IMG/VR virus record: IMGVR_UViG_3300010883_000399 | Location: 1-25,633 of that record | Strand: one strand, 5' to 3' | Source of the DNA: a virus | Length of the DNA: 25,633 nucleotides | In this document: positions 1,733 through 24,340 of the stretch, one piece after another | How positions within the stretch are numbered: the stretch's first letter is position 1 | How the letters are laid out: each line of letters opens with the position of its first letter | Made by a program: the position numbers and the translations under genes | The notes under the pieces: model-generated | The model's input: the letters and a program-made list of their open reading frames with translations, nothing else | Told to the model about the DNA's origin: nothing | The model's database searches: none

Positions 1733-1918
1733 TATACTGAGACGCTGTTGATACGCGTATCACCGAAGCCCTACGCGATACCCTTAACGGATATTGCCCA
1801 CGCGCTACGCGTTAGCCGGAGTCGCGCACGCGAACGCGTAATTTTGCCCTGCTTAACACCATGCGAAATAAAGAAAAAAATATACCAAATGAAAAAAAAC
1901 TACGACGCGTCTTCTTGA
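1709..1918 (+). CDS. Candidate small helix-turn-helix ORF (doubtful)
   Basis: A GTG-initiated frame of 69 codons crosses the CGCG-rich region. Its middle reads I-P-L-T-D-I-A-H-A-L-R-V-S-R-S-R-A-R-E-R-V (roughly residues 24-44), which matches the canonical helix-turn-helix spacing of I-A-x-x-L-x-V-S. Against it: no Shine-Dalgarno motif before the GTG, a very Arg-CGC-rich composition that could be an artefact of CGCG clustering, codon choice unlike the neighbours, and a 58-bp overlap with the 5' end of the giant gene if that gene starts at 1861. If real, it could encode the regulator that binds the palindromes beside it. I regard it as more likely not coding than coding. Confidence 0.25.
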   Translation: MLKRVPKRYTETLLIRVSPKPYAIPLTDIAHALRVSRSRARERVILPCLTPCEIKKKIYQMKKNYDASS

Positions 1919-4900
1919 AATATTTTTGCCCCGGAATAGCCTCAACCGCTATCTTCAAGGGGGTTCACTACTTCGGCTATGTAATGCTGTTATCCAAGAT
2001 GCTCGATGAGTTCCGCGAGATGGGATTGATTATGAAAGCAAAAGAGCAAGAAGGAGAGGACTCTGAGAAGCGCAAGCGTATAGACAAAAACGACAAAAAA
2101 TCAGGCAGAGAATTGACGCGCCTATTGGGTGCAGAATACAGCCGTCGTATATACTCAGAGAGGATGAGTCCCGCAGACGCTCTTGAGGATATGGTCATGT
2201 TATTGAATGACCAATTCCAAGAAATAACTAATCACACAGACAAGCCGGACTACAAGGGTATAACATTCGATGAATATCCTATCATTACCCCCGCGCAGAG
2301 TGAATGGTTGATTGATAAATATAATGAGACTAAGGACCGAATGATTGGTCCTGACGGGAAAAGCGAGTTCGGTTGGACGGAGGAAGATTTAGTCGATACA
2401 GTTGATTCTAATTCACACGCGTATTGGTTAGGCTTACTACCTTCTTCTATTACCCCGCGGCCAGCAACCTCAGTCAACCAATTGATGTATCAAAATCATC
2501 CTTTGGGGTCAACTTGGCATAACATACTGGAAGATTCGATGAAGCGCGGTGACTTCAAATTAGATACTGAGGCTTTAAGTCAACATAGAGAGAATATTTG
2601 GGACGCGAAACTTGCTGAGAGGAGAGGACTTGATGAAGCGTCAAGTGCCTTCCCGCCTCAATTAGAAAGAAATATTCCTGATAAGGGAAGTGAGTCAAAA
2701 CCATTTAGTCAAGAAGAAATGGAAGCGCAAAGCGAGGCAGCGAAGAGTGGCTATGAACATTTATATTCTAAAGTAAATATGGAGCCGGGTAACAAAGGCT
2801 TACCTGACGATGAAGTAGCATCTTCGTCATTAAAACCCATTGGTAAGTATAGTGACTTATCAAACAATCTCAGCCAGCGCATGACTGAGAAAGCGGAAAA
2901 GCATCAAAGTGACAAATATGACGAAGAACATATGTTTGCTGCCACGGATGCGCGAAATGAAATGGTTACGCGCCATACTCAAACCCTGAAGAAGTTAGAA
3001 TCCAAATACAACAGAGGTAAGAAGGGACCCACTACAAGACGCGCGGAATTAAAAGAAGAAATCGAGAACTTCAAACTTGAGGCGGCTGGTGAAAATAAAC
3101 AATTCGAGGACCAACAGAAGGGACTTCGTGATAGACTGAGATGGGAGAGTCTGAATGAACAATTTCATAGTATGCGAGATGGGTTAAACCATCACGCTAT
3201 CTCTGCTTTAGGGACTAAAAATATAGGAATGAAGGGGGGTAAAAAAGGTCGTGCGCCTCACATTGTTACACCAACATTGAAGCAAATTGCGACTTTGTTA
3301 AACCTCCATTGTGACTCTGTAAACGCGCCTGATGTGATGAGTGAACCATTGCTCAGTTTCATCGACGAAACTCCGCGTGATGCTCAATCAACATCTTATT
3401 TACGCCAGTTGACAAATGATGCTATGGACCGACAAGGCAGATTACATCCTGCTCTCAACAACGCTATAAAAGCAAACGGCGCGTTGGTTAGTAGATTCCC
3501 CGATGTGGGACATCTTGACCATAAGAACGAAGCGGGAAGTATGAGTAGACAAGTGAACGCTGCTGATAAGGTGGAATACGCAAACACCGTAGAAAGCGAT
3601 GATTCTTCTGACGATATTGATGTTACTGAAGCAAGTGGGGCAGAATCCTCCGAAGGGCCTGCATCACGCGATGGGGAACACAATACTGACGCGAAAGGAT
3701 TATTGGGTTCAGACATGGGATTAGCACCTGATACTTCCACAGCAGCAGGAGAAAAGCAAACGCGCGCAATGGTGCAGCATATTAGAAGCGGAGACGAAAC
3801 TGCAAAAACTCCTAAAAAGATTGCACGCAATTGGCATCTTTACAGAGATGAGATACTACAAAAAGTCCATCGTGGAGAGATAACTAAACGCGAAGCAAAA
3901 CAGATATTAACTGACAAATATTATAATTCAGATGATTTCGACGAAGCGCATAACGCGTTCTTAGGCATGGGAGATATGGACGAAATAGAGGAACCTTCAG
4001 ATATAAATCATCCCTTGCATGGAAGAACACCTGAAGAGAGGAAAAAATATGCTCAAGAAATAATGAGTGTGGTATTTGGAGTGCGGGGGTTATTAGAAAG
4101 GTCGAGTATGAGATTCCACGATAAGGATAGCGAGTCGTCATGGCATCGCGATGAGAGTAATAGACCTGCTTCTGCTGGTGATTTGAAAAAGTTATTTCAT
4201 CCACCAACTGCTGATGATTTTGGTGATTCCCGCGTTGATGAAAACGAAGCAGATAATGCAGAAGCAGAACATCGCGCGAAAGATTTTGATGCTAATAGTG
4301 AATTAGCACACAAGGTTAATAATTTGGGTTTGGATTGGAACGAAGTTACAAAACAAACATTGAAAATGATTGAAAAACATGCAAGGAGAAAGCAAGCCGG
4401 TTCCCAAGAACCTCTCGCGCTTAGTGCTGCTTTTAGAGAAACGATGGCAGAAATAACATTGAGTGCAACGAACAGAGTTGCAACACGCGAGTTGGATGAA
4501 GATAAATTACACGCTTTGACTCAGCAAATGAAAGCATTAGAACAAGAAGCGAGAGAAGATAAACAAACTCGTTTAATAACTGGTGAGACTACTGACGAAA
4601 TGAAACAAAGGCGAGAGCAACTAAAGGAATTAAAAGTTGAATTGAATCAACAAAGGAGGATTGGTGGTAAACCTATGATGTGGTTCGCGAATCAAGTTGT
4701 TAATGCAATTCAAGAGCAGGCTTTAGAAAAAGAGAAGGATGATAATTGGCTCAATAAGACGCGGGAACAGACACATAACATGGTTAAAGGCGACATGGAG
4801 AAGAAGAAAGATTGCGATGGTTGTGTTGGTAGTAAGAATCATTTCATGAATGAAGATAAACAAAGTTCATACAATAATGTTCACGAATATATCAAGTCGA

Positions 4901-7900
4901 AAAGGGGACGAAGCCCTTATACTCACATGCGAGTTCCTGTGCCTGACATCAGATTCCTCCCTAAAGATAGCGATACGAAAGTGTCATTACGCACAGTTGC
5001 TAATGCTGTTGGTTTAGGTGACGATTGGGATGCGTCGATTAAACATCGTCACGAAGAGACTATCAAATCCATGTTGATGGAAAAATTAATAGAAAAACCT
5101 CACGCGTGTGCTGAATTAACTAAAAAATATAATTTAGGCTCAAGACACGAAAACAGATTACCTGTGGGTGCTGCGGCCCTGAGTTCGGCAGATTTAGCAT
5201 TAGCCTCCGTCATGTTCCCTGATGATTATCGCAAACATCAAGCCAATGAGCAATCAAATGACATTCGTAATCAGCAAAGAAAGTCTATAACAGGAGCAAT
5301 GAATCTATTTGGAGAATTACAAAAGAGTGGATTTAAGTCGCGCGTCAATTACAAAACAGGCGAAGCGTTGAACTTTTCAAGTGAGCGCAAGTTAATGGAA
5401 GACATATGGAATCATTCAGGAGGAAGAGCATTATCAGATGCTGAAATAATACACAATGACGCTAAAGATGTTGTCAGCATTGCGAAGAATAAGTTTTCGT
5501 CTTTCTTCAACGATAAAAAGAACGGGCGAATATGGGCGCAATATTCAACCATCAGACGCGAGTTAAATGACCTGAGTATGGATGAAGAAAATATGTCGCC
5601 GCAAATGTTGAGACAATTACAAAAACATATTGAGCATACCAATTGGGATAATAGACACAATGATACCGAAGACATCACGATGGATGATGCGAAGGTAAAA
5701 CTGAGAGGTCTTTACGAAGGACACATAAAGAGAATATCAAAGAAGTTAAAAATACCGAATGACCTTAATGATTGGCGGTTTGGTGGCGATACAATACTTC
5801 AACCCAAAGGGGCGCAGAAAGGTAAAGTTATAGATATAAAATCAAGCAAAAAGGGTAACAGTATTGGTAATATAATGAACCAGAAAGATAAAGACGGTGG
5901 ACCAGAAGTATTGAATGGTATTTTCAATACCATTCAAGGTTATCAATCCATAGCCGATGAGCAGATGAAAGAAGTTGAAAAACTATCATCAAACTTAATA
6001 TCGGTTGATTCATCAGCACTTGGTGCAATGATGAAGATGATGCCGAGTATAGTTCGTTACGCGAATGAAGAACCTGAGAGCGATGGAGTTGAAGATGAAA
6101 ATAATCGTGCGCAAGATTTTATCGACTACATGATGAAGAGACATTATACAGAAAATGATGGATTGCCAAAAAGAACAGTATTACACGCGGGACAAATAGA
6201 CGCAAATCGTATAGTGAATAGAGGCAGTAAGGCATTTGAGCCTGTTACATATGAAGGCACGCCGGTAGTAAATGAAGTGCCTATGGGTGATGAATCCTTA
6301 TGGCAACTATATCCCGGCGGTCCGTCAATGAGACACGGTGGTGATAATAACTTAGGTTCTATTTTCAATCATATAAGTGGATTATTCTCGCGACCTTCTA
6401 TTGATGATTTAACTGACGCTCCTAATATAATAAAAAGATTAGAAGAATATGGTTTCAATCACGAACATGAGGGGGACGACGAATCACTCACTACATCGTT
6501 ACAGGCAGCAGCAGCAAAGTTTGCTGACCTGTTCCCTGATGCTGAATCTTCCCGCGCTGAACAAAATGAGGACGATGATGGGTTGGTTAGTGAAACAGAA
6601 CGCCGTCGGCGTAATCATAGCGACATGACTGTTAATGAAGATAGGCGTGATGATGAAAACAAATTGGGAACAAGCACTCTTTGTGGATATTGTCGCGGGC
6701 ATGGCTCAGTAAGTAAAGACAGACTTGCGAATTATTATGCTGCGCATAATAAAGATTTGAGACTGATGAATGCTACTGACCCTGAGATGAAGCAATATAT
6801 TTCTCAAATGTCACGCCCTGCTTCCACACCTTCATTTGACCACCATCGAGAAGAACATGGCGAGGATGCTTTCGAGGACCATGAGCATTGGTCTTACGCG
6901 TGTCCTGATTGTGAACACAATGATAAAACAGTTCGCGGGGGTAAAGTTTCCGACGGATTATGTAATCATTGTTTAGGACGCGGAGAAATTGACCCCGACG
7001 ATAAACCACGAATGCGCGTGTTGTTAAATGAAACATTAAAACACGCTCATCGCTTTGGTGACCACGCAGACATTGAATCTTTACTCAATGCTGGTGAAAT
7101 ACATGGCAGTAAGTCATTCGTGAGTGCAGTCAAGAGATTAATAAAAGGTAACGACCCTAAGTATATTAAAACAGAGCGTCCGACTAAAGGTGACGAAGAT
7201 ATTGGTGAAACATATGACCATTTAACTAAAATGTTTGATAATTTCGACATGAAACAAATGTTGCCTGAGAGTATGTTCTTTGAGGCTGTTCAACAAGGCG
7301 AATACCCTAATGTGTTATCTCCTAAAGAATATAAAAACGCACTTAACGCAGCAAAGCATAGAAAACGAGAGATGGGTCAAAGGAAGTCTATTAAAACCGA
7401 ATGGGAGAAACCTTCTGATGAATTACAAGATGATATAGACCCTACACAAGACGCAATGAGTAAATTGCCTAAGCAAAGTGTTCAAAAGGTTGTTGATGGG
7501 ACTCATATGAAAGGAATGAATCATTATTTGCAACACATGATGAGTCAATTGGATAAATATGGTGCTGATGATGAGAAGAAAGCAAAAGGACAAGAACTTG
7601 TCGATATTATAACTCAGTATGCGAAGCGCGACAGCGACGCTATTTCATTTTCATTAGGTGACACATCAGAACATGGTGAAGAGACAGTAGAGCATGGATT
7701 AGGGTCTATAACCCCTAATGCGGCTTGGCATCAATTACAAAATCTAATCAATAATCAATTCAAACAACAAATCTCAATCACAAAGCAAGACCCTCGCGGA
7801 ATGGAGATTTCACAATTAACAAGTGATGATGATGAGCCTGCGAAGGATATATTTGGTAAGAATCATGACTTCGCTCACCAACAATTAATATATCATAAAG

Positions 7901-9504
7901 GGCGCATGATGTCACGACATGAAATTGCTCATTATGACGACCTTGAAGGTATGGCAAAGCATCAAGTAACTAACCCTCATGAAGTCGAGGAATGGTTCGC
8001 GCGCAATAGTAATCCCAAAGCAGTAAACTCAAGAAGAAATAAATGGAAGAAAGACATCAGAGGTAGGATGAACCTGACTATCGAAGAACGATTGAAGGGT
8101 GATGGTTATTATCTTGAATCGGGTGAGGAAGAAGACGAAAAGGGTATTTACGCGGCTCGTCAAGAACCTATACCAACGCAAGATGATAAATCTGATATAA
8201 TGGGCGCGTTCATGAGACGAGGAGGAAAGGCTCGAAAGGTTCATGAGAAGACTATCAAGAGAGCAACTCAATTCACAAAGCGTATTGAAAAAATGAAACA
8301 AGAGAATATTATTCCTATTGTTAAAAATAAAAAAATCATACCACCCAACACAGAATTATTGAAACTTGTTAATGAATTAGGTATTACTAATGTTTCAGAT
8401 GGTGGTGAAGAAGCCGAAGGTAATGAGTTGCATCCATCATTAATTGATTTCAAAGACGACGCGTTTGAATGGTTACGCCCAAGACCGCCTAATCCTGAAG
8501 ACCCTGATGGGTATAGAGAAGCCTCAAAGAATGAAGTGCCAATGCATCTCAAATTAGAAAGTGAAATTGAGCATCATTTAGAGAAAGAGTTTGAACAATA
8601 TCTTCAGGCTAAAGCATTGAAGCATTTTATCAATGAAGTGAATCCAGACGCGGGACCAAATGCATATTCTTATCCGATGGAAGATGATTCAATGCAGTTC
8701 TTAACTGAAGACATGGTTAAACAAATGAATCAACCTGCTGAACTCGGTGGTAATCCTAAAGAGATAAGTAAGATTAATAATAGCGTAAAAGAACTAATTA
8801 AAAAGTCTAAGCGCAATAATACTTACCATATCGGAAAGGAGAGTTTAACGCGTTCCGATTATATGAATGAGAGGAAGGATGATGTTATTGAGCATCCTGA
8901 TGGACCACAATCAGTTGAATGGGGAGATTTCGCGGACAACCCTTGGGATGGTATTAACAAAATAGTTGATAGATACTATGAAAATTATGATAAGCATCCG
9001 GGTATTGAACGCGATAATCAATTAATTGACTTCGCGCATAAGATGTATTGGGCGGATAAAGCACCTAACATGTCAATAGATGCCTTGTGTGCGCGTCATG
9101 GTGTTGAAAATGAGAAAGATTGGAAAGAGAAATTACAAGACCCTGATTTCGCAAAAGAAGCGGATTTAGTGATTAACTTGAATCAATTGCAACACCCTTC
9201 GTGGAAAATGAGTCCACCAGTCTTGAGCAAGCATATAGATACCTTGTCTCATATTCAAGGGTTGAAAGATAGCACTTGGCAACCCAAACCGTTGCAGCCG
9301 TGGGGACCGGGACCGCCACCGCAAGAGAAGAAAACCTTCCCCGGTGATGGCACTTCCACCCCATACCCCGTCAACACCAAACCACCAATGTTAGAGTTGC
9401 AAGGGATAAAACCCCAAATTACACAGCAGCAGCAGCAAATGATTGATAATCCACCTGCACCTCTTGTCTCGCAACAAGAGCAACAAGAGCAAAACAATTC
9501 TTGA
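1861..9504 (+). CDS. Giant 2,547-aa hydrophilic protein with DnaJ-like zinc motifs
   Basis: This protein fills 30% of the window and I do not recognise it as a whole. It is highly charged, mostly helical or disordered, with no signal peptide or membrane segment. Coiled-coil-like stretches lie around residues 360-430 and 870-940. Residues about 1605-1710 carry C1608-G-Y-C-R-G-H-G, C1681-P-D-C and C1701-N-H-C-L-G-R-G, which resemble the CxxCxGxG repeats of the DnaJ zinc domain; another, C-D-G-C-V-G, starts at residue 985. There is no J-domain HPD. D-E-L-Q-D-D occurs near residue 1853. The last about 80 residues are Pro/Gln-rich. The start is uncertain: residues 1-41 differ in character from the charged body, no ribosome site precedes 1861, and ATG at 1984 is an alternative. 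It could be an internal or ejected virion protein, scaffold or host-takeover factor; no function is assigned. Confidence 0.85.
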   Translation: MRNKEKNIPNEKKLRRVFLKYFCPGIASTAIFKGVHYFGYVMLLSKMLDEFREMGLIMKAKEQEGEDSEKRKRIDKNDKKSGRELTRLLGAEYSRRIYSERMSPADALEDMVMLLNDQFQEITNHTDKPDYKGITFDEYPIITPAQSEWLIDKYNETKDRMIGPDGKSEFGWTEEDLVDTVDSNSHAYWLGLLPSSITPRPATSVNQLMYQNHPLGSTWHNILEDSMKRGDFKLDTEALSQHRENIWDAKLAERRGLDEASSAFPPQLERNIPDKGSESKPFSQEEMEAQSEAAKSGYEHLYSKVNMEPGNKGLPDDEVASSSLKPIGKYSDLSNNLSQRMTEKAEKHQSDKYDEEHMFAATDARNEMVTRHTQTLKKLESKYNRGKKGPTTRRAELKEEIENFKLEAAGENKQFEDQQKGLRDRLRWESLNEQFHSMRDGLNHHAISALGTKNIGMKGGKKGRAPHIVTPTLKQIATLLNLHCDSVNAPDVMSEPLLSFIDETPRDAQSTSYLRQLTNDAMDRQGRLHPALNNAIKANGALVSRFPDVGHLDHKNEAGSMSRQVNAADKVEYANTVESDDSSDDIDVTEASGAESSEGPASRDGEHNTDAKGLLGSDMGLAPDTSTAAGEKQTRAMVQHIRSGDETAKTPKKIARNWHLYRDEILQKVHRGEITKREAKQILTDKYYNSDDFDEAHNAFLGMGDMDEIEEPSDINHPLHGRTPEERKKYAQEIMSVVFGVRGLLERSSMRFHDKDSESSWHRDESNRPASAGDLKKLFHPPTADDFGDSRVDENEADNAEAEHRAKDFDANSELAHKVNNLGLDWNEVTKQTLKMIEKHARRKQAGSQEPLALSAAFRETMAEITLSATNRVATRELDEDKLHALTQQMKALEQEAREDKQTRLITGETTDEMKQRREQLKELKVELNQQRRIGGKPMMWFANQVVNAIQEQALEKEKDDNWLNKTREQTHNMVKGDMEKKKDCDGCVGSKNHFMNEDKQSSYNNVHEYIKSKRGRSPYTHMRVPVPDIRFLPKDSDTKVSLRTVANAVGLGDDWDASIKHRHEETIKSMLMEKLIEKPHACAELTKKYNLGSRHENRLPVGAAALSSADLALASVMFPDDYRKHQANEQSNDIRNQQRKSITGAMNLFGELQKSGFKSRVNYKTGEALNFSSERKLMEDIWNHSGGRALSDAEIIHNDAKDVVSIAKNKFSSFFNDKKNGRIWAQYSTIRRELNDLSMDEENMSPQMLRQLQKHIEHTNWDNRHNDTEDITMDDAKVKLRGLYEGHIKRISKKLKIPNDLNDWRFGGDTILQPKGAQKGKVIDIKSSKKGNSIGNIMNQKDKDGGPEVLNGIFNTIQGYQSIADEQMKEVEKLSSNLISVDSSALGAMMKMMPSIVRYANEEPESDGVEDENNRAQDFIDYMMKRHYTENDGLPKRTVLHAGQIDANRIVNRGSKAFEPVTYEGTPVVNEVPMGDESLWQLYPGGPSMRHGGDNNLGSIFNHISGLFSRPSIDDLTDAPNIIKRLEEYGFNHEHEGDDESLTTSLQAAAAKFADLFPDAESSRAEQNEDDDGLVSETERRRRNHSDMTVNEDRRDDENKLGTSTLCGYCRGHGSVSKDRLANYYAAHNKDLRLMNATDPEMKQYISQMSRPASTPSFDHHREEHGEDAFEDHEHWSYACPDCEHNDKTVRGGKVSDGLCNHCLGRGEIDPDDKPRMRVLLNETLKHAHRFGDHADIESLLNAGEIHGSKSFVSAVKRLIKGNDPKYIKTERPTKGDEDIGETYDHLTKMFDNFDMKQMLPESMFFEAVQQGEYPNVLSPKEYKNALNAAKHRKREMGQRKSIKTEWEKPSDELQDDIDPTQDAMSKLPKQSVQKVVDGTHMKGMNHYLQHMMSQLDKYGADDEKKAKGQELVDIITQYAKRDSDAISFSLGDTSEHGEETVEHGLGSITPNAAWHQLQNLINNQFKQQISITKQDPRGMEISQLTSDDDEPAKDIFGKNHDFAHQQLIYHKGRMMSRHEIAHYDDLEGMAKHQVTNPHEVEEWFARNSNPKAVNSRRNKWKKDIRGRMNLTIEERLKGDGYYLESGEEEDEKGIYAARQEPIPTQDDKSDIMGAFMRRGGKARKVHEKTIKRATQFTKRIEKMKQENIIPIVKNKKIIPPNTELLKLVNELGITNVSDGGEEAEGNELHPSLIDFKDDAFEWLRPRPPNPEDPDGYREASKNEVPMHLKLESEIEHHLEKEFEQYLQAKALKHFINEVNPDAGPNAYSYPMEDDSMQFLTEDMVKQMNQPAELGGNPKEISKINNSVKELIKKSKRNNTYHIGKESLTRSDYMNERKDDVIEHPDGPQSVEWGDFADNPWDGINKIVDRYYENYDKHPGIERDNQLIDFAHKMYWADKAPNMSIDALCARHGVENEKDWKEKLQDPDFAKEADLVINLNQLQHPSWKMSPPVLSKHIDTLSHIQGLKDSTWQPKPLQPWGPGPPPQEKKTFPGDGTSTPYPVNTKPPMLELQGIKPQITQQQQQMIDNPPAPLVSQQEQQEQNNS

Positions 9505-9629: not shown

Positions 9630-10175
9630 ATGCAACCGGCGGGTAATCCACACAACACAGACGAATTACGAATACTCGGACTCATCTCTTTCGTGTCAAT
9701 TTTAGTTGGGTGCGCTATTGGTGTATTTGATGCAGAATTATGGCTCGTTGATGAGCAAGTGCGAACCAACGCGTTAACTTACACTATGGGTGCGTTCACA
9801 TTGCAAGGGATGGGATATTTCCTTTGGAAAATGCTTGCTCAAGATTCAATGGACCAAAAAGCAAGCCTCGCTAACATGCAGAAAAGCATGTCGCGTCAAA
9901 TGCAAAAGCAGCAGATGGGTTTCGCACAAAAGCAGATGGAAATTGAGATGAAAAAGCAAGAAATGGTGTTTTCGCATCAACTTACTCAACTTGAGACAGA
10001 CCCCGAAGTGGTTCAATACTTAGCATTACAGCAAGAGATGCAACAAGCGGCAGAAGAAGCCGCAGGAATCCCTTCGCATACTTCTAATGAGAATAAGCCA
10101 ATGCCTCTCGGTGCTACTAAAGCAAGGAAGTCAGATGGCACTTTTGCTGCTAAGAAGAAAGGTAAGAAGGAGTGA
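9630..10175 (+). CDS. Two-pass membrane protein with cytoplasmic coiled coil
   Basis: The 181-aa product has two hydrophobic segments (about residues 15-38 and 48-67), each long enough to cross a membrane. Residues about 70-145 form a Gln/Met/Lys-rich stretch with the periodicity of a coiled coil. The C-terminal tail is very basic and ends in a Lys-rich K-K-K-G-K-K-E. GAGGGAA about 5 nt before the ATG is a good ribosome site. It opens a compact operon with another membrane protein and a small GTPase. I do not recognise a family. A membrane anchor presenting a coiled-coil platform, perhaps for the GTPase or for assembly proteins, is inference. The basic tail could contact nucleic acid or acidic lipid head groups. 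Confidence 0.8.
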   Translation: MQPAGNPHNTDELRILGLISFVSILVGCAIGVFDAELWLVDEQVRTNALTYTMGAFTLQGMGYFLWKMLAQDSMDQKASLANMQKSMSRQMQKQQMGFAQKQMEIEMKKQEMVFSHQLTQLETDPEVVQYLALQQEMQQAAEEAAGIPSHTSNENKPMPLGATKARKSDGTFAAKKKGKKE

Positions 10176-10181
10176 CCTTCT

Positions 10182-10418
10182 ATGGGTTGGTTGTTCAAAA
10201 CACCAAGCGATGATGCAACAGAAGCAACATTACGAGCCTTACATACTCAAAACACTCTTGATAATTATTATGAACGCGGGAAGGGACTCTTATTAGCAAT
10301 TATATTTTCAATATTAACAGGATTGGTTGTTTCGTGGTTTGAATACGGAACAGATTACAGCGTTTGGGAAAACACCGTCGAATGGGCCAAAGATAAGGTT
10401 GTAGGTTGGGTTTCTTGA
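10182..10418 (+). CDS. Small single-pass membrane protein
   Basis: The 78-aa product begins M-G-W-L-F and has one strong hydrophobic segment at about residues 36-52 (L-L-L-A-I-I-F-S-I-L-T-G-L-V-V-S-W), followed by an amphipathic, Trp-rich C-terminus. AAGGAG precedes the ATG at a normal distance and overlaps the end of the upstream gene. Its stop codon lies one base before the GTPase start codon, so the two are almost certainly co-translated. No family is recognised. It may anchor or regulate the GTPase, by analogy with partner subunits of membrane GTPases, but only gene adjacency supports this. Confidence 0.75.
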   Translation: MGWLFKTPSDDATEATLRALHTQNTLDNYYERGKGLLLAIIFSILTGLVVSWFEYGTDYSVWENTVEWAKDKVVGWVS

Positions 10419-10419
10419 T

Positions 10420-11139
10420 ATGGTAGCATTAGCAGGTAGCGCACTTATGGGTGCAGTAGTTTATGGAAAAGAACTGTATAACTTCTTGAAACCGCGCAGA
10501 ATTGGTGTATATGGACCTACTTTAGTTGGTAAAACAACACTTGACCGTTTTATGCAGACACCGGGAGAAATGGAAGAGGTTGATGAGCGCACCATGCACG
10601 CTAAACGATTGTTACATGGTGGGCATGTGCTTCCGCGCGCTACAAGAAAGCGTATCAGGTGGCAAGGTGAGAAAAGAATAGTCCATTCATCAGATATTGG
10701 CGGCCAACAGCGTTTCTGGAACTTGTGGGTTGACGATATGGTTGATAGACAAGTTGAAATTGTTATTTTTATGACTGATACTCGCGCATTAGTAGGTAAT
10801 GGTTCTCAAGTCATTGATGTTGTTGGAGGATTAGAGTTTCTTGTTGACGCGTTGATAGAGAAGCGATGGAATTACCGAAGACTGAAAACAAGATTAAAAG
10901 GTAAGCGATACGCGCCTAAGCAAATATGGATTGTTGCCAATAAAGCAGATGAGTGGTGGGATGAAAAAGCAAACATATTGTGGCAATCTAATAGATTGCG
11001 TGAACATAAAGTATTCGATGTTCATAGGCCAGCCATGCGCAGACTTCAGAAAGCAGGGATTCCTTGCCGCGTCTCCATGATGGCTACGAATATAGGCTGG
11101 AATGTCGAAAAAACAATGTTAGAAATGTTAAATTGGTGA
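10420..11139 (+). CDS. Arf/SR-beta-like small GTPase with hydrophobic N-terminus
   Basis: The 239-aa product shows the G motifs of a Ras-superfamily GTPase. G1 is G32-P-T-L-V-G-K-T39 (Walker A). G3 is D92-I-G-G-Q96 followed by Q-R-F-W, the DxGGQ form typical of Arf, Sar and SR-beta proteins. G4 is N174-K-A-D177. A G5-like A-T-N-I-G-W-N-V lies close to the C-terminus, where small GTPases end. G2 is not clear in the insert between about residues 42 and 90. Residues 2-16 are hydrophobic, giving a membrane-segment-then-GTPase layout like the signal-recognition-particle receptor beta subunit. It would bind and hydrolyse GTP at the membrane. Its flanking genes encode membrane proteins and it lies in a viral structural operon. 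Capture from a host Arf-like gene is plausible. The family call is firm; the biological role is unknown. Confidence 0.82.
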   Translation: MVALAGSALMGAVVYGKELYNFLKPRRIGVYGPTLVGKTTLDRFMQTPGEMEEVDERTMHAKRLLHGGHVLPRATRKRIRWQGEKRIVHSSDIGGQQRFWNLWVDDMVDRQVEIVIFMTDTRALVGNGSQVIDVVGGLEFLVDALIEKRWNYRRLKTRLKGKRYAPKQIWIVANKADEWWDEKANILWQSNRLREHKVFDVHRPAMRRLQKAGIPCRVSMMATNIGWNVEKTMLEMLNW

Positions 11140-11144
11140 AAAAA

Positions 11145-12041
11145 ATGCTCGGAACACAGAATCAAAACGATTTATTAAGACTTGCCGCACAAACGAATAT
11201 GCCTTTGGCTCAATTACAACAGCAAGCGGCAGTTCAGGGCGCAATGCAACAGCAAGCGGGCGTTATAGAAGTGCCTCAAGTTAATTTTTACCCTTCAAGA
11301 CACTCTAATCCTGTCAAAGCGCGCCGTCAAGACATCAAACAAGCGTATAGATTACTAAAACCAACAAAAAGACCTCTCTTATCTCCGCGAAGATGGTGGT
11401 TTGGTGGTAAATATCGCTATAATACTAACACAATGCGATGTTGTATTGACGGATGTGATGCTGAGAATCTTATTCGGTTAGCAGGTAACATTTATGACCA
11501 AATAAGTGATGATGAAGACGGAAAATCGCTATGGGATTTGTATTTCCATAACCCTGTAACGAATGAACCTCAAGCCTTTATCGCAAAAGAGAATGTAACG
11601 AGTGGTCGCAACATGCGTGGCACTTACTGCCCCGAACATTTGCACCTCTTCCATATGTTAACGAAGTGGGAACGCGAAGAAGAAGTCGAACAGGAGTCAA
11701 AAGGAGGCACACTCAAAGCAAAATTGAAGAAAGGTGTATCAGTAGTGGCTATTCCCATCTCGACAATCAGAAAAAAAGACAATACCCCTCCACAACTTGC
11801 ACCCTATCAACCATTTTTCAACATGTTAGAGCGCGATAACATACCAATTATGCATTTAACGAACGCGGCTACGGGTGGTAATGATATGACAATTATAGTG
11901 TTCGATATGCGTCAATTTCAAGGCGGACAGAACAACAGATTGCTATACGAAGCCCTTGCTATGAATCAAATGCAACAACAAATGCAGAACGGAATAGAAC
12001 CCGCGCCACTTCCGCAACAATCAAATGAGGGTAGCATGTGA
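11145..12041 (+). CDS. Gln-rich protein with possible zinc site
   Basis: I choose the ATG at 11145, preceded by GGTGA at 11135-11139. The frame stays open upstream into the GTPase gene, but that extension would overlap a firmly identified protein. The 298-aa product begins with a Gln/Ala-rich segment (about residues 20-40), followed by a basic region (about 52-90). C99-C100, C104, C162-x2-H165 and H167 could coordinate zinc. A second part (about 205-275) has hydrophobic beta-like strands, including T-I-I-V-F-D-M, and the C-terminus is Met/Gln-rich. No membrane segment is present. It lies between the GTPase and a Gln-rich protein in the same operon, so it may be a soluble partner of the membrane module. 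Family unknown. Confidence 0.75.
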   Translation: MLGTQNQNDLLRLAAQTNMPLAQLQQQAAVQGAMQQQAGVIEVPQVNFYPSRHSNPVKARRQDIKQAYRLLKPTKRPLLSPRRWWFGGKYRYNTNTMRCCIDGCDAENLIRLAGNIYDQISDDEDGKSLWDLYFHNPVTNEPQAFIAKENVTSGRNMRGTYCPEHLHLFHMLTKWEREEEVEQESKGGTLKAKLKKGVSVVAIPISTIRKKDNTPPQLAPYQPFFNMLERDNIPIMHLTNAATGGNDMTIIVFDMRQFQGGQNNRLLYEALAMNQMQQQMQNGIEPAPLPQQSNEGSM

Positions 12042-12050
12042 GGTGGTATT

Positions 12051-12665
12051 ATGGGATGGTTTAGCAGTAATGAAGCCCAACCTCAGTCGGGCGCAATCAA
12101 TCTCGGTTTAGGTAATAACCAACAGCAAGTTCCTATGCAGAACGGGATGTATCAACAACAGGCCGGTATGCCGCAACAAGGCGGATGGGGTCAGCAGCAA
12201 CAGCAGAACCCGTGGGGTCAGCAGCAATATCAACCCCCACCGAGCGAAATGGAGATTATTTCCGCGCTTATTTCAACAAATCCTTCAATAGACCGTTGGT
12301 TATCAACCGATAATAATCTTCAAACCATTGTTCAGTTGCTAAGCAGTATTGTAGCGGTATCTGTCAATCAAATACTCGCTAACTGTTCCATCAAAGAAGA
12401 TGGAGACTCTATGAAGTTTGATTTTAGCGCGGTTCAAGGAATGCCAACTCCTGATAGCGTAGCGATGAATATGAGTCAGTTACAAAACTCAGCATCAAAT
12501 GTCGTTCAGCAGCAGTCTATGCAGATTCAACAAATGGTTTCTATGGCTAACCAAGGTAACATGCAAGGAATGTTAGACTCGGCTATGGCTGACCCCGGCA
12601 TGATGCAAAGCGTTGGTGGCGGTCTTGGGTCGTTAGTTCGTTCTATGGCAACAGGAGGCCGTTAA
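12051..12665 (+). CDS. Gln/Gly/Met-rich protein with short globular core
   Basis: The 204-aa product begins M-G-W-F and has a Gln/Gly/Pro-rich low-complexity N-terminal 65 residues. A compact predicted helical core follows at about residues 66-115 (E-M-E-I-I-S-A-L-I onward). The Met/Gln-rich C-terminus contains repeated Q-Q and M-Q motifs and a Gly-rich end. GAGGTGGT sits 4 bases before the ATG, one of the best ribosome sites in the window. No domain is recognised. Prion-like Gln/Met/Gly sequences are often self-associating, so a structural or assembly role is possible. It belongs to the GTPase operon. Confidence 0.75.
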   Translation: MGWFSSNEAQPQSGAINLGLGNNQQQVPMQNGMYQQQAGMPQQGGWGQQQQQNPWGQQQYQPPPSEMEIISALISTNPSIDRWLSTDNNLQTIVQLLSSIVAVSVNQILANCSIKEDGDSMKFDFSAVQGMPTPDSVAMNMSQLQNSASNVVQQQSMQIQQMVSMANQGNMQGMLDSAMADPGMMQSVGGGLGSLVRSMATGGR

Positions 12666-12666
12666 G

Positions 12667-12909
12667 ATGCAAGGAGATTGGACAGGCGGTTTGATTACCG
12701 CAATGAGTGATTTTAGCCATATGCGTAAGTCTGTAATTGTTGATATGATTATGGTTCAACTCATCAGTCTAACACTTGGCTGTTTTATGGTTATCGCGTT
12801 TAATAGTGGCTCGATGGATTCAACAACTCTGTCGTATTTACTCGTCACTTTGTTTGCCCTTTTCAGTTTCACCGGAATGGTCTATCGTAAGTTTGCTCAC
12901 GGGGATTAA
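12667..12909 (+). CDS. Small two-pass membrane protein
   Basis: The 80-aa product has two hydrophobic segments (about residues 25-43 and 53-71) joined by a short polar loop and ends with a basic Y-R-K-F-A-H-G-D. GGAGG precedes the ATG, partly inside the upstream gene's end. It is the last gene of the membrane/GTPase operon, and its 3' end overlaps by 72 bp the 3' end of the convergent zinc-ribbon gene. Size and topology would suit a holin, but short two-pass membrane proteins are too common for that call, and no lysin gene is nearby. A partner of the GTPase module is equally possible. Confidence 0.7.
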   Translation: MQGDWTGGLITAMSDFSHMRKSVIVDMIMVQLISLTLGCFMVIAFNSGSMDSTTLSYLLVTLFALFSFTGMVYRKFAHGD

Positions 12910-13155
12910 CCATTTCCCAACAGGGCATTGACTCGATGTTAAAGTGGATTTGAACTTCATAAAGCATCCACACAGGGTGCATCTTGGTGCGCTAAAGTGT
13001 TCACAAGAATGACATATGCTTAGTCTTCTATTTCTTTCTTCTTCGTCAACCTTACGATTAAGTAAGGAGTCCCTGACACCTGTTCCAAGACTAATTGCGC
13101 TCGTTATACTAATAGGAATGCCTGCGATTCGGGCTGTTTTCTTAGGAGGACGCAC
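12838..13155 (-). CDS. Antisense zinc-ribbon protein of the CPxGKW phage family
   Basis: The 105-aa minus-strand product carries R-R-L-S-I-C48-x2-C51-x7-C59-x2-C62-G-C64-F-M-K-x-K, then C77-P-V-G-K-W. I recognise this layout from small uncharacterised proteins common in tailed phages: a cysteine-rich zinc ribbon followed by a CPxGKW end. The first about 40 residues are less conserved-looking and the start (GTG at 13155) is uncertain, with no clear ribosome site. The family usually ends soon after GKW; here about 23 more residues run on and overlap the convergent membrane-protein gene. It is the only minus-strand gene between the rightward operons, filling an otherwise empty 285-bp gap. Its function in the family is unknown to me. 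Zinc binding is inferred from cysteine spacing. Confidence 0.72.
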   Translation of the reverse strand: MRPPKKTARIAGIPISITSAISLGTGVRDSLLNRKVDEEERNRRLSICHSCEHFSAPRCTLCGCFMKFKSTLTSSQCPVGKWLIPVSKLTIDHSGETEKGKQSDE

Positions 13156-19289: not shown

Positions 19290-20690
19290 ATGGATGGCTT
19301 AAGCCTCGACACCGTTGAAGAGATTGATTACGAAGTTGCTAAACGCGATTTTAAGTTTTTCTTTGAGGAGATTCTTGGCTTTCAATTATCACATCACCAT
19401 GAGAGATGGTTTAACAATCTCGAATCACAAAAACGATATTGTGTTAAAGCGGCGCGTGACCACGGTAAATCAACATTATTTTTATCCTATTTATTATGGA
19501 AAGCAGCGTTCAATCCAAAAACTAAGTGTGTGCTAATAAGTCACAGTTTACATCAGTCTATTCACCACATGCGAACACTCAATGACCTCATAGATGGAAT
19601 ACCTTTCCTTGCGCGTATGAAGAAAGCCGACTCATGGTCGAAGACATTCTTCGGATTCGCGAACGGTTCAAACATCAGCGCGAAGTCTGTGGGTGGTGCT
19701 ATTCGTGGTATTCACCCCGACCTCATTCTATGTGACGATATTCTATGGGGAACGACTGACACAGAATTGCAAAGAGTTGCAAGTTGGTTTTATGAAGTTC
19801 TTGTTCCTACACTCCACCACACATCAAAACTGATGATTGTCGGGACTCCGTTTACCCCGACTGACCTTTACACAGAATTAGAAGCGCGTGAAGGTTACCT
19901 CGTTGAAACATATCCTGCTATCAATACTAAAGGTGTTGCTCTTTGGCCGGAGCGATGGGATTTAGAATCACTTGATGCGCGCAGAAACGATATGCCTGCT
20001 ATCGCATTCGCTCGCGAATACCTGTGTGAGCCTATGGATGATATGAGCAGTTTATTCCCATCATTAGTTCTTCAAGCCGCTAAAGACAACGACTTGAGAA
20101 TCATCAATCGCGCAAATGGCGACCCTGACGACCAATACTTTGTCGGTTGGGACCCTGCTATTTCATCAGACAGGTCGGCTGACTACACAGTTATGGTGGT
20201 GCTTCGTCGCCCATCCACCAATCCTGAACTTCTTGAATTAGTTCATGTGGTTCGCAGAAAGAATATGGATTTCCGAACACAGATTATGGAGATTCAAAAA
20301 CTCAATGCTAAGTTTGCTCCTGATGTGATTGAACTTGAGGCTAACAACTTTCAGCGAGTCTTCGCTACTGAATTACGCGCGGACACAGACCTTCCAATTA
20401 AGACCTTTATATCAACTCGCCAACGCCGAGAATCGCTTCTCATGGGGTTGGTTATGCGATTTGAGAAAGAGCAGATGAGATTACCGTGGGGCGATGAGAA
20501 CTCCCGAACACTTATGAGCGAGTTAGAACGGGAACTACTTATGTTCGGCATGTCGAAGAAGGGCAAGTTGGATAGCATCGGGCGGCATGATGATTTTGCA
20601 ATCGCTCTCGCGTTGGCACATTGGGGAACTACTGAGTTCCGTGAACGCGTAGTTGACCTTGATGATTTAATGTTGGGGCTGATTGATTGA
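19290..20690 (+). CDS. terL: Terminase large subunit (TerL)
   Basis: The 466-aa product is the DNA-packaging motor. The N-terminal ATPase has Walker A A54-A-R-D-H-G-K-S-T62, Walker B L145-I-L-C-D-D150 and a coupling-type I-V-G-T-P-F at about 183-188. The C-terminal RNase H-fold nuclease has G-W-D288-P-A with the following D-Y-T-V-M-V-V strand, an acidic V-I-E-L-E-A-N-N near residue 350, and a final R-H-D-D-F-A-I-A-L-A helix. These are the metal-binding acidic positions expected for headful-type terminases, and the length fits a complete protein. It would cut concatemeric DNA and pump it through the portal encoded 1.8 kb downstream. AGGTGA lies 13 bases before the ATG, a rather long spacing. 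The gene is intact, with no intein or intron, although a homing endonuclease gene lies downstream. Confidence 0.95.
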   Translation: MDGLSLDTVEEIDYEVAKRDFKFFFEEILGFQLSHHHERWFNNLESQKRYCVKAARDHGKSTLFLSYLLWKAAFNPKTKCVLISHSLHQSIHHMRTLNDLIDGIPFLARMKKADSWSKTFFGFANGSNISAKSVGGAIRGIHPDLILCDDILWGTTDTELQRVASWFYEVLVPTLHHTSKLMIVGTPFTPTDLYTELEAREGYLVETYPAINTKGVALWPERWDLESLDARRNDMPAIAFAREYLCEPMDDMSSLFPSLVLQAAKDNDLRIINRANGDPDDQYFVGWDPAISSDRSADYTVMVVLRRPSTNPELLELVHVVRRKNMDFRTQIMEIQKLNAKFAPDVIELEANNFQRVFATELRADTDLPIKTFISTRQRRESLLMGLVMRFEKEQMRLPWGDENSRTLMSELERELLMFGMSKKGKLDSIGRHDDFAIALALAHWGTTEFRERVVDLDDLMLGLID

Positions 20691-21019
20691 ATTACGAATA
20701 CTGTGACTGTTGCACCCCTGCTGAAATTGCTTTAGAAGTGATAAAGGCTAAGAAAGAAAAACCATTTCACGGTTACAATCCTAAGAAGCACAGTCCCAAA
20801 GGTGGGTTGAACGCGAAAGGTCGAGCCGCCGCGAAACGCAAGTCGGGGGCAAATCTCAAACCTCCGGTCACAACCAAACCAAGTAAACTCAAACCCGGCT
20901 CTAAGAAAGCCAAGCGTCGCAAATCATTTTGCGCTCGTATGGGTGGAATGAAAGGTGCAACTTCTAAAAAGGGTAAACTAACACCGAAAGGTGCGTCACT
21001 AAAGAGGTGGAATTGTTAA
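20687..21019 (+). CDS. Small basic RRKSFCARM/KRWNC-type virus protein
   Basis: The 110-aa product starts at TTG, overlapping the terL stop. It carries S-P-K-G-G-L-N-A-K-G-R, then R-R-K-S-F-C82-A-R-M-G-G-M-K-G, and ends L-K-R-W-N-C110. I recognise this combination from a small uncharacterised family widespread in marine phages and archaeal tailed viruses; I believe it is catalogued as DUF6321, but could not check. An extra N-terminal Y-C6-D-C-C-T-P is present here. The protein is strongly basic, so nucleic-acid binding or a role in packaging or in the head is possible. Its usual neighbourhood near terminase supports a late function. The family is likely; the function is unknown. Confidence 0.8.
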   Translation: MNYEYCDCCTPAEIALEVIKAKKEKPFHGYNPKKHSPKGGLNAKGRAAAKRKSGANLKPPVTTKPSKLKPGSKKAKRRKSFCARMGGMKGATSKKGKLTPKGASLKRWNC

Positions 21020-21020
21020 G

Positions 21021-22454
21021 ATGTGGACAGGTTCTATACTCAAGGACGACCCTATCGAAAAGGTCTTTGAAATGTTATTGAAGAATGCAGGTTCTATTCA
21101 AGGTGGTAAAATGGGCGATGGCTCAACAACTATCTCTGAAGGTGGTGGTGAATTAGCCGGTAGTGCAGAGCCACCAAAACCTGATGATGTTGAAGAAAAA
21201 GAAAAAGAAAAACAAATTGCTCAAGTATTTCAACAACAACAAACTCAACTACCTACTCAACAACTAAAGAGTGCTATGCCTCATAACGGTTGGTTTCAAT
21301 CTATGTTTGGTAAAGACGCTGAATCAATGGTGAAAGAGTTGCGTATGGCGAGAAGAATCAAAAAAAATATGCGTGATGATATTGACCTTGCGATAGAAGC
21401 AATACGCGTAGCAAAGAAAGAAGAAGTCAATACAACTCTCAAATCTTTATCTTGGTGCGATAATCATCTATCAGCGATACGCTCTCTTGGTATTTCCGAT
21501 AGAGACTTACAAGCGTTGAGGAAACATGGAAACAATCGCGAGTATGCTCTAAGACGCGCATGTTCAACATGGGAAAAAGCAAATGATGTCATTTCAAAAT
21601 TAGCGAAAGTTGAAGGTGATTTTGACAATAATCAATTGGAAATGTGGTTGCAAGCCAATCAAATGAGAAAAGATGCGAAAAAAGAATGGAAATCATCGTT
21701 ACATTCAATTGACAATATCAAAAAGCAAGAAGCGATATGGCTTACGCGCACAAGTGATTTGTTAGAAAAGAGAGGTCCGTTATCTTCCAACGAGATTTAC
21801 AACTCAATTGGTTCTCCAAAAAATCTCTCTATTCGTAAAATGGCATCTATACTAAAGATTCATGGAATAGAGTATGATATTGAAAAAATTGGAACAAATT
21901 ACGGGTTAATTCGTGATGATTTTGTAATTGTGAAAGATATATGGGCTTATGCGGCAGGTTTCCTCGACGCTGACGGCTACATCACTATCACTAAACGCGG
22001 AGAACCAAGAGCAGGGTTTGTTGCAACAGGAGGTCGTGGAAAAATCCATTGCGAGAATCTATACAAAGCGTTAGGTTGCGGTGTCCTTCAAACAGATTTG
22101 AAGGTTCACAAAACAAGCACACGCTCACAACACAGACTTCAATTTTATGGCGCGGACGACCTGCGTAAATTACTCAAAGGAATCGGCCCGCATCTTCAAA
22201 TGAAAAAAAATCAAGCAAGCGCAGTATTGCATTTACTTGACATGAGAGGTCGTAAAAGCGACCTTGTTAAATCAAGGAGAGATGAATTGTATCGTGTTGT
22301 TAAGTGGGAAAATTGGAAGGATGTTCCAGAAGAGCGTGAGAAATTGCTCCGAGAGTGGAAGGTTGAAGAGGCTGAAGTTCTTGCATGGGGACAACGGGAT
22401 AACGAAGTTATCCGCCTTGTGGACGACGCGCACCGTATAGAGAGGTTGATTTGA
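21021..22454 (+). CDS. LAGLIDADG homing endonuclease with long N-terminal extension
   Basis: The 477-aa product contains A311-A-G-F-L-D-A-D-G-Y-I-T-I, a textbook LAGLIDADG motif, followed by the usual fold through about residue 400 (K-L-L-K-G-I-G-P-H-L-Q-M-K-K-N-Q-A). Only one motif is seen, so it should act as a homodimer cutting a long, near-palindromic site. Residues about 250-305 look like a winged helix. The first about 100 residues are unlike homing endonucleases (acidic, then poly-Gln), and 105-245 is helical, so the gene may be a fusion of an endonuclease with a resident viral gene. There are no intein splice motifs. GAGGTGG precedes the ATG and the end overlaps the portal start. It sits between packaging genes, a classic place for homing-endonuclease invasion. 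Confidence 0.85.
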   Translation: MWTGSILKDDPIEKVFEMLLKNAGSIQGGKMGDGSTTISEGGGELAGSAEPPKPDDVEEKEKEKQIAQVFQQQQTQLPTQQLKSAMPHNGWFQSMFGKDAESMVKELRMARRIKKNMRDDIDLAIEAIRVAKKEEVNTTLKSLSWCDNHLSAIRSLGISDRDLQALRKHGNNREYALRRACSTWEKANDVISKLAKVEGDFDNNQLEMWLQANQMRKDAKKEWKSSLHSIDNIKKQEAIWLTRTSDLLEKRGPLSSNEIYNSIGSPKNLSIRKMASILKIHGIEYDIEKIGTNYGLIRDDFVIVKDIWAYAAGFLDADGYITITKRGEPRAGFVATGGRGKIHCENLYKALGCGVLQTDLKVHKTSTRSQHRLQFYGADDLRKLLKGIGPHLQMKKNQASAVLHLLDMRGRKSDLVKSRRDELYRVVKWENWKDVPEEREKLLREWKVEEAEVLAWGQRDNEVIRLVDDAHRIERLI

Positions 22455-24340
22455 TGGCTGAAGACAAAGGTATGGTAGGCAGATTTTTATCTTCACTCTC
22501 GAAACCATTCAGACGACGAACCACGCCTGAGCCAATCATGCCGCTATGGAAAAGCGGTATTCAAGAGCCGGTTCTCGTTCAAGGTGTTAGTATTCCTGCA
22601 CTTTATTCAACCGTTCAAGAATCAGTTGTGTTAAGAACTACGATTAATACACTTTGCCAAGAAGTCTTCCGTCGTGGTCATTATTGGCAAAAGAAGTTTC
22701 ATAAACAATGCACCAACTGCAAAGAAGAATATAAACATGATACTGTTAAATCTTGCACATTATGTGGTAACAAAGAGTTTGGTTCTCCTGATGTTGACCA
22801 AATACTATACCCTCGCTGGTTATTAGACCAGCGAAACGCTATGGACCAATCATTCATGGATGTTATGCGAGAAATTGAATGGGATTTAGATATTGTTGAC
22901 GACGCGTTTCTCATTCTCATTAAAGAATACTTCATTGACCCTGACGATGGGGACATATCCTTTTTCCGAATCAAGGAAGTCATGCGTGGCGACCCTACCT
23001 TCATGAGAATTGTTGCAGATAAGAGAGGTTCGCGAGGTGGCAGGTATCTCATATGTCCTGTTCATCGTGACAAAACATACCCTCATAACGGCGATTATAC
23101 GAAATGTGATGAATGCAGATTACCATTACAAGATGTTCATTATATCAACACAGCCGGTTCAGGAAAGACACAGTATTATATTGACGGAGAGATTTTACAC
23201 ACAAGTAAGTTCAATCCTTCTAAATTGTATGGTCGCAGCCCCGTCGCTACTATGTGGAGACAGGCTCAAACGCTAACAGCGATGGATAATTATATTTATC
23301 TTGCATATCAAAAGAGGCGTATTCCTCGCGGTGTTCTTGCAATAACAACAGATAACATTCAATCAACTGCTTCATTCTGGAAAGGTGCAGAAGAAAAGAT
23401 GGAGCGCGACCCTCATTATATTCCGAAGATAGGCATTGAGTCTGCTTCGGGTCGCGGTAAAGTCGAGTTTGTTCGCTTCATGGACACTCTCGATGAAATG
23501 CAATATAGCGCAATCCGCGATGAAGTTCGTATGCGAATCGCTGCTTTTTATGGTGTATCAAGCATATTCATGATGGATGCTGGCAAGTCTGGCGGTTTGA
23601 ATAACGAAGGTATGCAAATACTTGTCACTAATCGCGCTGTTGAATACGGGCAAAAAATATATTCAAAAAACTTATTCCCGCGCCTATTGAAAGAGATGGG
23701 TGTTGATGAGTGGGAATTAACACTTTATCCGAATGAAGAAGAAGATGAAGTTACGCGTCTTAAACGAGACGAACAAGAAGTAAATATCGCACAGCGTATG
23801 CAACAACTTGGATTCCAAGCAGACCTCACAGAAGATTCTGGTAGCGATATACGATTTGTGTATAGTAAACCTGAACCTCAACCTCAACAGCAACAGCCTC
23901 CGGGTGGTGGAGGAATGCCTCCGGGTGGTGGAATGCCTCCTCCTATGCAACCTCAAGGTGGAATGCCAATGCCTCCGGGTGGTGGAGGAATGCCGCCTCA
24001 AGGTGGAATGCCGCCTCAACAAGGTGGAATGCCTCCGGGTGGTGGACCAATGCCACCTCAACAGGGTGGCGGACAAGTTCTTACAAGTGAGCCAGATGAG
24101 AGAGCAAGGAGTGGTTCGGAACTCATGATGATGGAGAAGGCTGGAATGGTTGGACTTGGAGAAGGAACAGGTCAGCGTGATAACGGTCCCGCGCCAATTT
24201 CATCTGAAACTCATTTACAAGGCGCGCCTACTACAAAGAAGAATCAACGCGGAGCAGAAAAGAGTGTTACAGAACAGGCTCTTGATGCGGTTGAAGCAGC
24301 GAAAGACCCTACAAGTAAAAACAAAGAAAGCGGCTTTTGA
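22454..24340 (+). CDS. Portal protein with two zinc-ribbon insertions
   Basis: The ATG at 22454 overlaps the previous stop (TGATG) behind GAGGTTG. The 628-aa product has features of phage portal proteins, the dodecameric ring at the capsid vertex that binds terminase: a repeated helical N-terminus, the L-Y-G-R-S-P segment near residue 260, a long helix with A-Y-Q-K-R-R, a region near 370-385 reading F-Y-G-V-S-S-I-F, and a disordered C-terminal extension. Unusually, the wing region contains two zinc-ribbon-like clusters: C86-x2-C89-x11-C101-x2-C104 and C201-x2-H204-x13-C218-x2-C221. The C-terminal about 150 residues are Pro/Gly/Met/Gln-rich repeats plus a charged tail, not a usual portal feature. 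The portal call rests on pattern memory and neighbourhood. Confidence 0.82.
   Translation: MAEDKGMVGRFLSSLSKPFRRRTTPEPIMPLWKSGIQEPVLVQGVSIPALYSTVQESVVLRTTINTLCQEVFRRGHYWQKKFHKQCTNCKEEYKHDTVKSCTLCGNKEFGSPDVDQILYPRWLLDQRNAMDQSFMDVMREIEWDLDIVDDAFLILIKEYFIDPDDGDISFFRIKEVMRGDPTFMRIVADKRGSRGGRYLICPVHRDKTYPHNGDYTKCDECRLPLQDVHYINTAGSGKTQYYIDGEILHTSKFNPSKLYGRSPVATMWRQAQTLTAMDNYIYLAYQKRRIPRGVLAITTDNIQSTASFWKGAEEKMERDPHYIPKIGIESASGRGKVEFVRFMDTLDEMQYSAIRDEVRMRIAAFYGVSSIFMMDAGKSGGLNNEGMQILVTNRAVEYGQKIYSKNLFPRLLKEMGVDEWELTLYPNEEEDEVTRLKRDEQEVNIAQRMQQLGFQADLTEDSGSDIRFVYSKPEPQPQQQQPPGGGGMPPGGGMPPPMQPQGGMPMPPGGGGMPPQGGMPPQQGGMPPGGGPMPPQQGGGQVLTSEPDERARSGSELMMMEKAGMVGLGEGTGQRDNGPAPISSETHLQGAPTTKKNQRGAEKSVTEQALDAVEAAKDPTSKNKESGF
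23897..24070 (+). repeat. Degenerate PPGGG(M) repeats in portal tail
   Basis: Variants of CCTCCGGGTGGTGG and CCTCAAGGTGGAATG alternate over about 175 bp, encoding P-P-G-G-G-M and P-Q-G-G-M units. Their similarity at the DNA level indicates slippage or duplication. The encoded tail is flexible and prone to self-association. Long apparent ORFs in other frames here are by-products of the repeat. Confidence 0.85.

Follow-up and report, generated by a model that had tools for sequence, protein, structure and literature searches.

Why would a tailed virus of archaea carry a small GTPase among its virion genes, and where would such a protein act? Most discussion of Arf/Ras-type small GTPases concerns eukaryotes, giant viruses, and cellular archaea, and these proteins control membranes in complex cells. 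The question is raised by the gene at 10420..11139 (+) of the window, as we call the whole 25.6-kb virus record analyzed here. An earlier note on this DNA had proposed that the gene encodes an Arf/SR-beta-like GTPase with a membrane-type N terminus. The ORF and the motifs quoted from it are indeed present, and the 239-aa product is read here as a Ras-like, Arf-related small GTPase on the basis of the ORF, a 74-sequence alignment, an AlphaFold (AF2) model, and Foldseek matches.

The gene and its virus

The ORF starts with ATG and lies in a tightly packed row of genes on the same strand, where the upstream 78-aa ORF ends at 10418 and the next gene runs from 11145. Homologues were found in IMG/VR at 71 loci by a single-sequence search and at 214 loci by an alignment search, and 86 further homologous loci form a second clade (clade II). 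Therefore, the ORF is not a chance product. It is under strong purifying selection, with dN/dS values of 0.03–0.07 (NG86, pairwise against four relatives) at dS values of at least 1.3; dS was saturated in a fifth comparison.

The window carries the genes for the terminase large subunit (terL, 19290..20690, +; Pfam Terminase_6N and 6C, both above cut-off) and the portal protein (22451..24340, +; Pfam Phage_portal at E 1.9e-7, below the gathering score). With terL and portal genes downstream in the window, and with MCP and tail genes flanking it in clade II, the GTPase gene does lie between structural genes, within an operon of virion genes in a tailed virus, as had been noticed.

The same gene order is found in relatives, among them contigs of 92–105 kb. 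The contigs longer than 90 kb in the gene-order test encode a family-B DNA polymerase (PolB) in 7/7 cases and a chaperonin in 6/7, the latter being a thermosome in both relatives typed (n = 2). The published profile of magroviruses, which are tailed viruses of Poseidoniales, is available for comparison (PMC5332604, PMC12999244, PMC10768690). The Magrovirales traits (about 90–110 kb, tailed, own PolB, often a thermosome or GroEL) are found in the relatives of the window. Since the relatives match the profile in size, PolB, and chaperonin, the window is assigned to magroviruses, as a 25.6-kb fragment of one. The closest INPHARED entries to the PolB of these relatives are haloarchaeal tailed viruses, Druskaviridae among them, and no INPHARED relatives were found for either clade I, to which the window belongs, or clade II. 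Magrovirus contigs L073, L074, and L075 occur in MAGs labelled Cytophagaceae, Maricaulis, and Asgard archaeon, and look mis-binned.

Some other ORFs in the window should be noted. The 477-aa ORF between terL and the portal gene (21021-22454) gives a weak LAGLIDADG-like match (E 0.29); the equivalent place in HVTV-1 is taken by an HNH endonuclease. The 2547-aa protein (1861-9504) matches nothing in Pfam at E 1, and its homologues are found in only 32/100 loci, partly since many loci are cut there. The 110-aa DUF6321 protein (20687-21019, E 4.7e-17) is highly conserved (72–84% in most matches), yet its position shifts among relatives.

Fold and G boxes of the GTPase

The AF2 model made with the 74-sequence alignment (pLDDT 85, pTM 0.82) supersedes an earlier one made with 34 sequences (pLDDT 73.6). 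The predicted strands (β1, 26–31; β2, 75–81; β3, 84–92; β4, 114–119; β5, 168–173; β6, 216–220) and helices (α1, 38–44; α2, 97–110; α3, 128–147; α5, 229–238) follow one another in the Ras order. In a Foldseek search against the PDB, nearly all of the 50 matches listed are small GTPases (prob 1.00). The highest target TM-score among the matches listed is 0.73, for Asgard GerdArfR1 (8oum, 20% identity), and Arl8b is also among the better ones. In BFVD, searched with the earlier, poorer model, the best matches are Rab/Ras proteins of giant viruses.

The single sequence matches Pfam Arf (PF00025) at E 0.13, and its 12.2 bits do not reach the gathering score of 22.3; the best family member gives E 0.047. 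The 74-sequence profile finds 8oun, an Asgard GTP-binding protein, at E 4.8e-4, Rab33B at 4e-3, and Arl8/Arl10 chains at 0.04–0.08. RecA fusion chains outrank 8oun in this search through a match of the P-loop alone, summed over the fused repeats.

The residues invariant in the 74 homologues, which reach down to about 30% identity, are Gly32, Gly37-Lys38-Thr39-Thr40, Arg57-Thr58, Asp92, Gly95, Asn174-Lys175, and Asp177. The G1 box, or P-loop (GPTLVGKT, residues 32–39; 10513..10536, +), and the G4 box (NKAD, residues 174–177; 10939..10950, +) are confirmed as previously described. GxxxxGKTT is present in all motif counts listed, and G4 reads ANKAD in 156/156 sequences of clade I and ANKxD in 77/77 of clade II. 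The G5-like end is also borne out, with MAT at residues 221–223 (11080..11088, +) and SAK at this position in clade II. The G3 box (DIGGQ, residues 92–96; 10693..10707, +), located by the alignment and motif counts, is followed by Trp100 and Trp103 (D+8 and D+11), the latter invariant. The box itself stands, with its Asp and second Gly invariant, but its final Gln is not a fixed feature: the position is occupied by Q in 107, E in 41, D in 6, and H in 2 sequences of clade I, and by E in 56 and Q in 21 of clade II. Given this variation at the catalytic Gln position, mostly between Q and E, hydrolysis may be tuned or partner-assisted.

The G2 box was absent from the earlier list of motifs. Arg57-Thr58 (10588..10593, +) is likely to be G2, since it is invariant in both clades and aligns with PTMG of the Asgard relatives described below. 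The clade II sequences read RT[V/E/M]G at this site in 77/77 cases, and this RTxG lies opposite the Asgard PTMG when lined up by eye. Thr75, the first candidate for the G2 threonine, was rejected on the same grounds. Thr58 precedes β2, and the spacing from G2 to G3 is longer than usual. With Arg57-Thr58 as G2, the set of five G boxes is complete.

The G boxes, the predicted Ras fold, and the profile link to Ras-like proteins together make it almost certain that the protein is a Ras-like (TRAFAC) small GTPase. A P-loop ATPase or kinase, acting in packaging or nucleotide metabolism, would agree with the weak single-sequence family scores and with the RecA fusion chains, which match at the P-loop alone. 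However, such an enzyme is hardly credible, as it is contradicted by NKxD in 233/233 sequences counted, by the G2 Thr and DxGG, by the predicted topology, and by the top structural matches, all of which are small GTPases; the outcome that would have spoken against the earlier proposal, a model lacking the Ras-like fold or a packaging or kinase ATPase, did not appear.

The N-terminal helix

The N terminus had been described as a hydrophobic segment of membrane type, and SR-beta, which has the same GTPase superclass, had been offered as a comparison. Residues 2–23 (10423..10488, +) are predicted to form a moderately hydrophobic helix, judging from DSSP of the model, KD19 (the mean Kyte–Doolittle value over 19 residues), and the hydrophobic moment. 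The mean KD19 of the helix is 1.05 in 156 clade I homologues and 1.35 in clade II, both below the usual transmembrane range, and the helix is weakly amphipathic in the window protein (moment 0.13–0.29). The window protein has no Gly2 myristoylation site. Judged by its sequence, the helix is not a clear transmembrane anchor. The N-terminal segment is thus retained as a predicted helix, whereas its membrane character is not; clear membrane segments are found in the products of neighboring genes.

These observations bear on the possibility that the protein is an SR-beta-like factor steering the insertion of viral or host membrane proteins. The DxGGQ motif, the overlap of SRPRB and Arf profile matches in the Asgard relatives, and "putative signal recognition particle protein" chains found at E 0.04 in the profile search would be compatible with it. 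In addition to the lack of a clear N-terminal anchor, however, the SRPRB profile does not match the viral proteins at E 1, and no SR-alpha-like gene was recognized beside the GTPase gene. The SR-beta comparison is therefore abandoned, and a role of this type is very unlikely.

Relationship to Arf-type GTPases

We searched 195 Asgard genomes with the first viral profile, Asgard archaea not being the host. The best matches are members of an Arf-subfamily with G[PS]SxxGK[TS] and DxGGQxxFWxLW (loci L269, L271, L273–L276, L281, and L287; 19–42 bits with the larger profile), together with a second, small group of proteins with DCPGD. Three Arf-subfamily members scanned match Pfam Arf at E 2e-14 to 2e-18. 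The subfamily shares with the viral proteins the G-box signatures and the Trp residues at D+8 and D+11. It differs in having an N-terminal part of about 115 aa with CxxC and a canonical PTMG-type G2, whereas in the viral proteins G2 is RT, the loop leading to β2 is longer, and the N-terminal helix is short. The N-terminal part of the Asgard proteins contains a motif like RTLECxxCxRxD; scans of three of these proteins gave no Pfam match for it.

In a maximum-likelihood tree of 69 proteins, the viral sequences of both clades group together (100/100) and join the Asgard Arf-subfamily (80/92) on a long stem (1.83). ArfRs and the related FR group are located on the viral side and Ras and Rag on the opposite side, with a support of 23/44 for the deeper branch. 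The Asgard subfamily in the tree had been chosen by similarity to the viral profile. The DxGGQ motif with Trp at +11, the profile and tree neighbors, and the structural match to 8oum agree with the proposal of a virus-encoded Ras-like GTPase nearer to Arf than to Ras, Rab, or Rag. Because of the support of the deep branch, the long stem, and the way the subfamily was picked, Arf-related is held as the best reading of these sequences, short of proof.

Conserved partners of the GTPase

Clade II was reached through a census of PolB contigs, which gave a divergent homologue (L288:8924-9592, 32% identity) and, from it, the 86 loci. In most large contigs of clade II, PolB is split and no chaperonin match was obtained. 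The L288/G019 contig combines a clade I-like PolB (67% identity to L182) with a clade II-type virion module, and is either a recombinant or a chimeric assembly.

Seven neighboring gene families of clade I were compared with seven of clade II by hhalign profile–profile alignment. Three families match in the same order: the GTPase (prob 99.9%), a zinc-site protein (95.5%, E 1.5e-8), and a Q-rich protein (92.5%, E 4.9e-7), while the remaining pairs give at most 18%. In the window, the second gene of this cassette encodes a putative zinc-site protein of 298 aa with conserved C-x4-C ... C-x2-H, as judged from the alignment (11145..12041, +; clade II homologue z229), and the third encodes the Q-rich protein of 204 aa (12051..12665, +; clade II homologue q228). 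Both clades, at 32% GTPase identity, and a GroEL-type relative share the order GTPase, zinc-site protein, Q-rich protein. A Pfam scan of the zinc-site protein gave nothing at E 0.1, and thus no match to DUF2072 or ArfGAP.

Membrane proteins are encoded on both sides of the cassette in the window. A 181-aa protein (9630..10175, +; KD19 2.58; 96/100 loci) carries one or more transmembrane segments at its N terminus and ends in a long, charged, Q-rich tail, and a 78-aa single-span protein (10182..10418, +; KD19 2.33; 98/100 loci) is encoded directly upstream of the GTPase. Downstream, an 80-aa protein has two transmembrane segments (12667..12909, +; KD19 2.29 and 1.79; 93/100 loci). A 105-aa ORF (12838-13155, −; DUF6171, E 1.8e-8), present in 87/100 relatives, overlaps the end of the 80-aa gene.

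The virion operons around the cassette are arranged differently in the two clades. The clade I cassette follows the genes for the 181- and 78-aa membrane proteins and is located upstream of terL. The clade II cassette follows the genes for MCP and the membrane protein m146 and precedes the connector and tail genes. A transmembrane-protein gene is directly upstream of the GTPase gene in both clades, and the upstream proteins of the two clades have no detectable homology by hhalign (prob 0.4–0.9).

The position among head and tail genes would fit a part of the virion equally well as the action on membranes discussed below. The GTPase could be a morphogenesis factor or component that, with the zinc-site and Q-rich proteins, provides a GTP-dependent checkpoint in head completion, head–tail joining, or genome delivery. 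Both clade II and the GroEL-type relative place the cassette between MCP/head genes and connector/tail genes, and the druskavirus HVTV-1, whose gp125 is a homologue of the clade II connector x368, has no match to any cassette profile. On the other hand, the clade I cassette is located elsewhere, beside membrane-protein genes, and we know of no precedent for a Ras-like GTPase in phage morphogenesis. We regard a role of this kind as possible but somewhat unlikely.

Distribution among magroviruses

The GTPase gene is present in 25/25 PolB-anchored contigs of at least 80 kb (16/16 and 9/9 with two PolB anchors), a count that is not fully independent because the GTPase itself had led to some of these contigs earlier. 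Every PolB contig lacking the gene is shorter than 80 kb and possibly incomplete. With the second of the anchors, eight contigs (70–97 kb) were reached that had not been found through the GTPase, and the gene is present in 8/8; one of them, with GroEL and a clade II-type PolB, resembles Aoguangviridae. The carriers span thermosome-type, GroEL-type, and chaperonin-less lineages. The GTPase gene is a core virion-operon gene and apparently universal in magroviruses. An Arf/Ras-type GTPase with two conserved partners behaves here as a core gene of abundant marine archaeal tailed viruses.

Possible roles of the GTPase

The GTPase has conserved partners, neighboring membrane-protein genes, and a place in the virion operon, and these lead us to a late switch at the host membrane, working with the cassette partners during assembly or release, as the best explanation, which we hold tentatively. 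We infer late expression, membrane recruitment, partner binding, and a role in assembly or release as follows. The GTPase would be the switch of the three-gene cassette and would be made late in infection. It may be held at the host cytoplasmic membrane by the N-terminal helix, by the small membrane proteins encoded upstream, or by both. Through its GTP/GDP cycle, the GTPase would recruit the other two cassette proteins, with the zinc-site protein as a candidate regulator or effector. The partners and the GTPase might then organize or deform the membrane in virion assembly and release, much like ArvA/B/C in driving the formation of vesicles by haloarchaea.

The action on host membranes is suggested by the adjacent membrane-protein genes and by the analogy with ArvA. 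The weak hydrophobicity and amphipathicity of the N-terminal helix, and upstream membrane proteins that differ between the clades, count against it, and the want of a Pfam match in the zinc-site protein counts against an ArvC- or ArfGAP-like partner. The stronger proposal, that magroviruses reshape the host cytoplasmic membrane with a dedicated Arf-type GTPase cassette for assembly or exit, is rather doubtful at present. If true, a prokaryotic tailed virus would exit, or build itself, by GTPase-driven membrane remodeling.

The target might instead be the regulatory proteins of the host. By mimicking a small GTPase of the host or serving as its decoy, the protein would titrate host factors that regulate vesiculation, division, motility, or surface polarity, or would block superinfection. 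Its Arf-related sequence suits such a function, and many members carry Glu in place of the catalytic Gln, which is compatible with altered hydrolysis. However, a host-takeover factor would not be expected from a gene order kept with two dedicated viral partners or from a location in the virion operon, and we consider it improbable. As for the late membrane-associated switch, the cassette provides a concrete and testable candidate for how magroviruses leave archaeal cells.

Comparison with known systems

Word searches of papers on magroviruses (PMC10160649, PMC8651126, PMC5332604) and the three ICTV profiles consulted yielded no mention of a GTPase. The magrovirus GTPase is provisionally regarded as new, though an earlier annotation is possible.

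A parallel in cellular archaea is offered by ArvA, which is closest to the Arf family by HMM and is encoded in an operon with ArvB and the zinc-ribbon protein ArvC; Haloferax needs it to form vesicles (PMC10927574). According to this published description, ArvA/B/C resemble the viral cassette in that a small Arf-like GTPase of archaea shares an operon with a zinc-site protein. The partners differ: ArvB and ArvC belong to DUF2073 and DUF2072, respectively, whereas the viral zinc-site and Q-rich proteins have no such Pfam matches, and homology between the two sets of partners was rejected on this ground.

The eukaryotic Arf, Arl, and Sar proteins have DxGGQ with Trp at +11 in common with the viral GTPase. 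Unlike them, the viral protein has neither the Gly2 myristoylation site nor a strongly amphipathic N-terminal helix, and it stays below the Pfam Arf gathering score. The Ras/Rab GTPases of giant viruses found in BFVD are likewise virus-encoded and Ras-like, with the same fold. They belong to eukaryote-infecting viruses and bear Rab/Ran-like names, whereas the magrovirus GTPase is a core virion-operon member of a prokaryotic tailed virus. The record of archaeal Arf-like proteins now reaches viruses.
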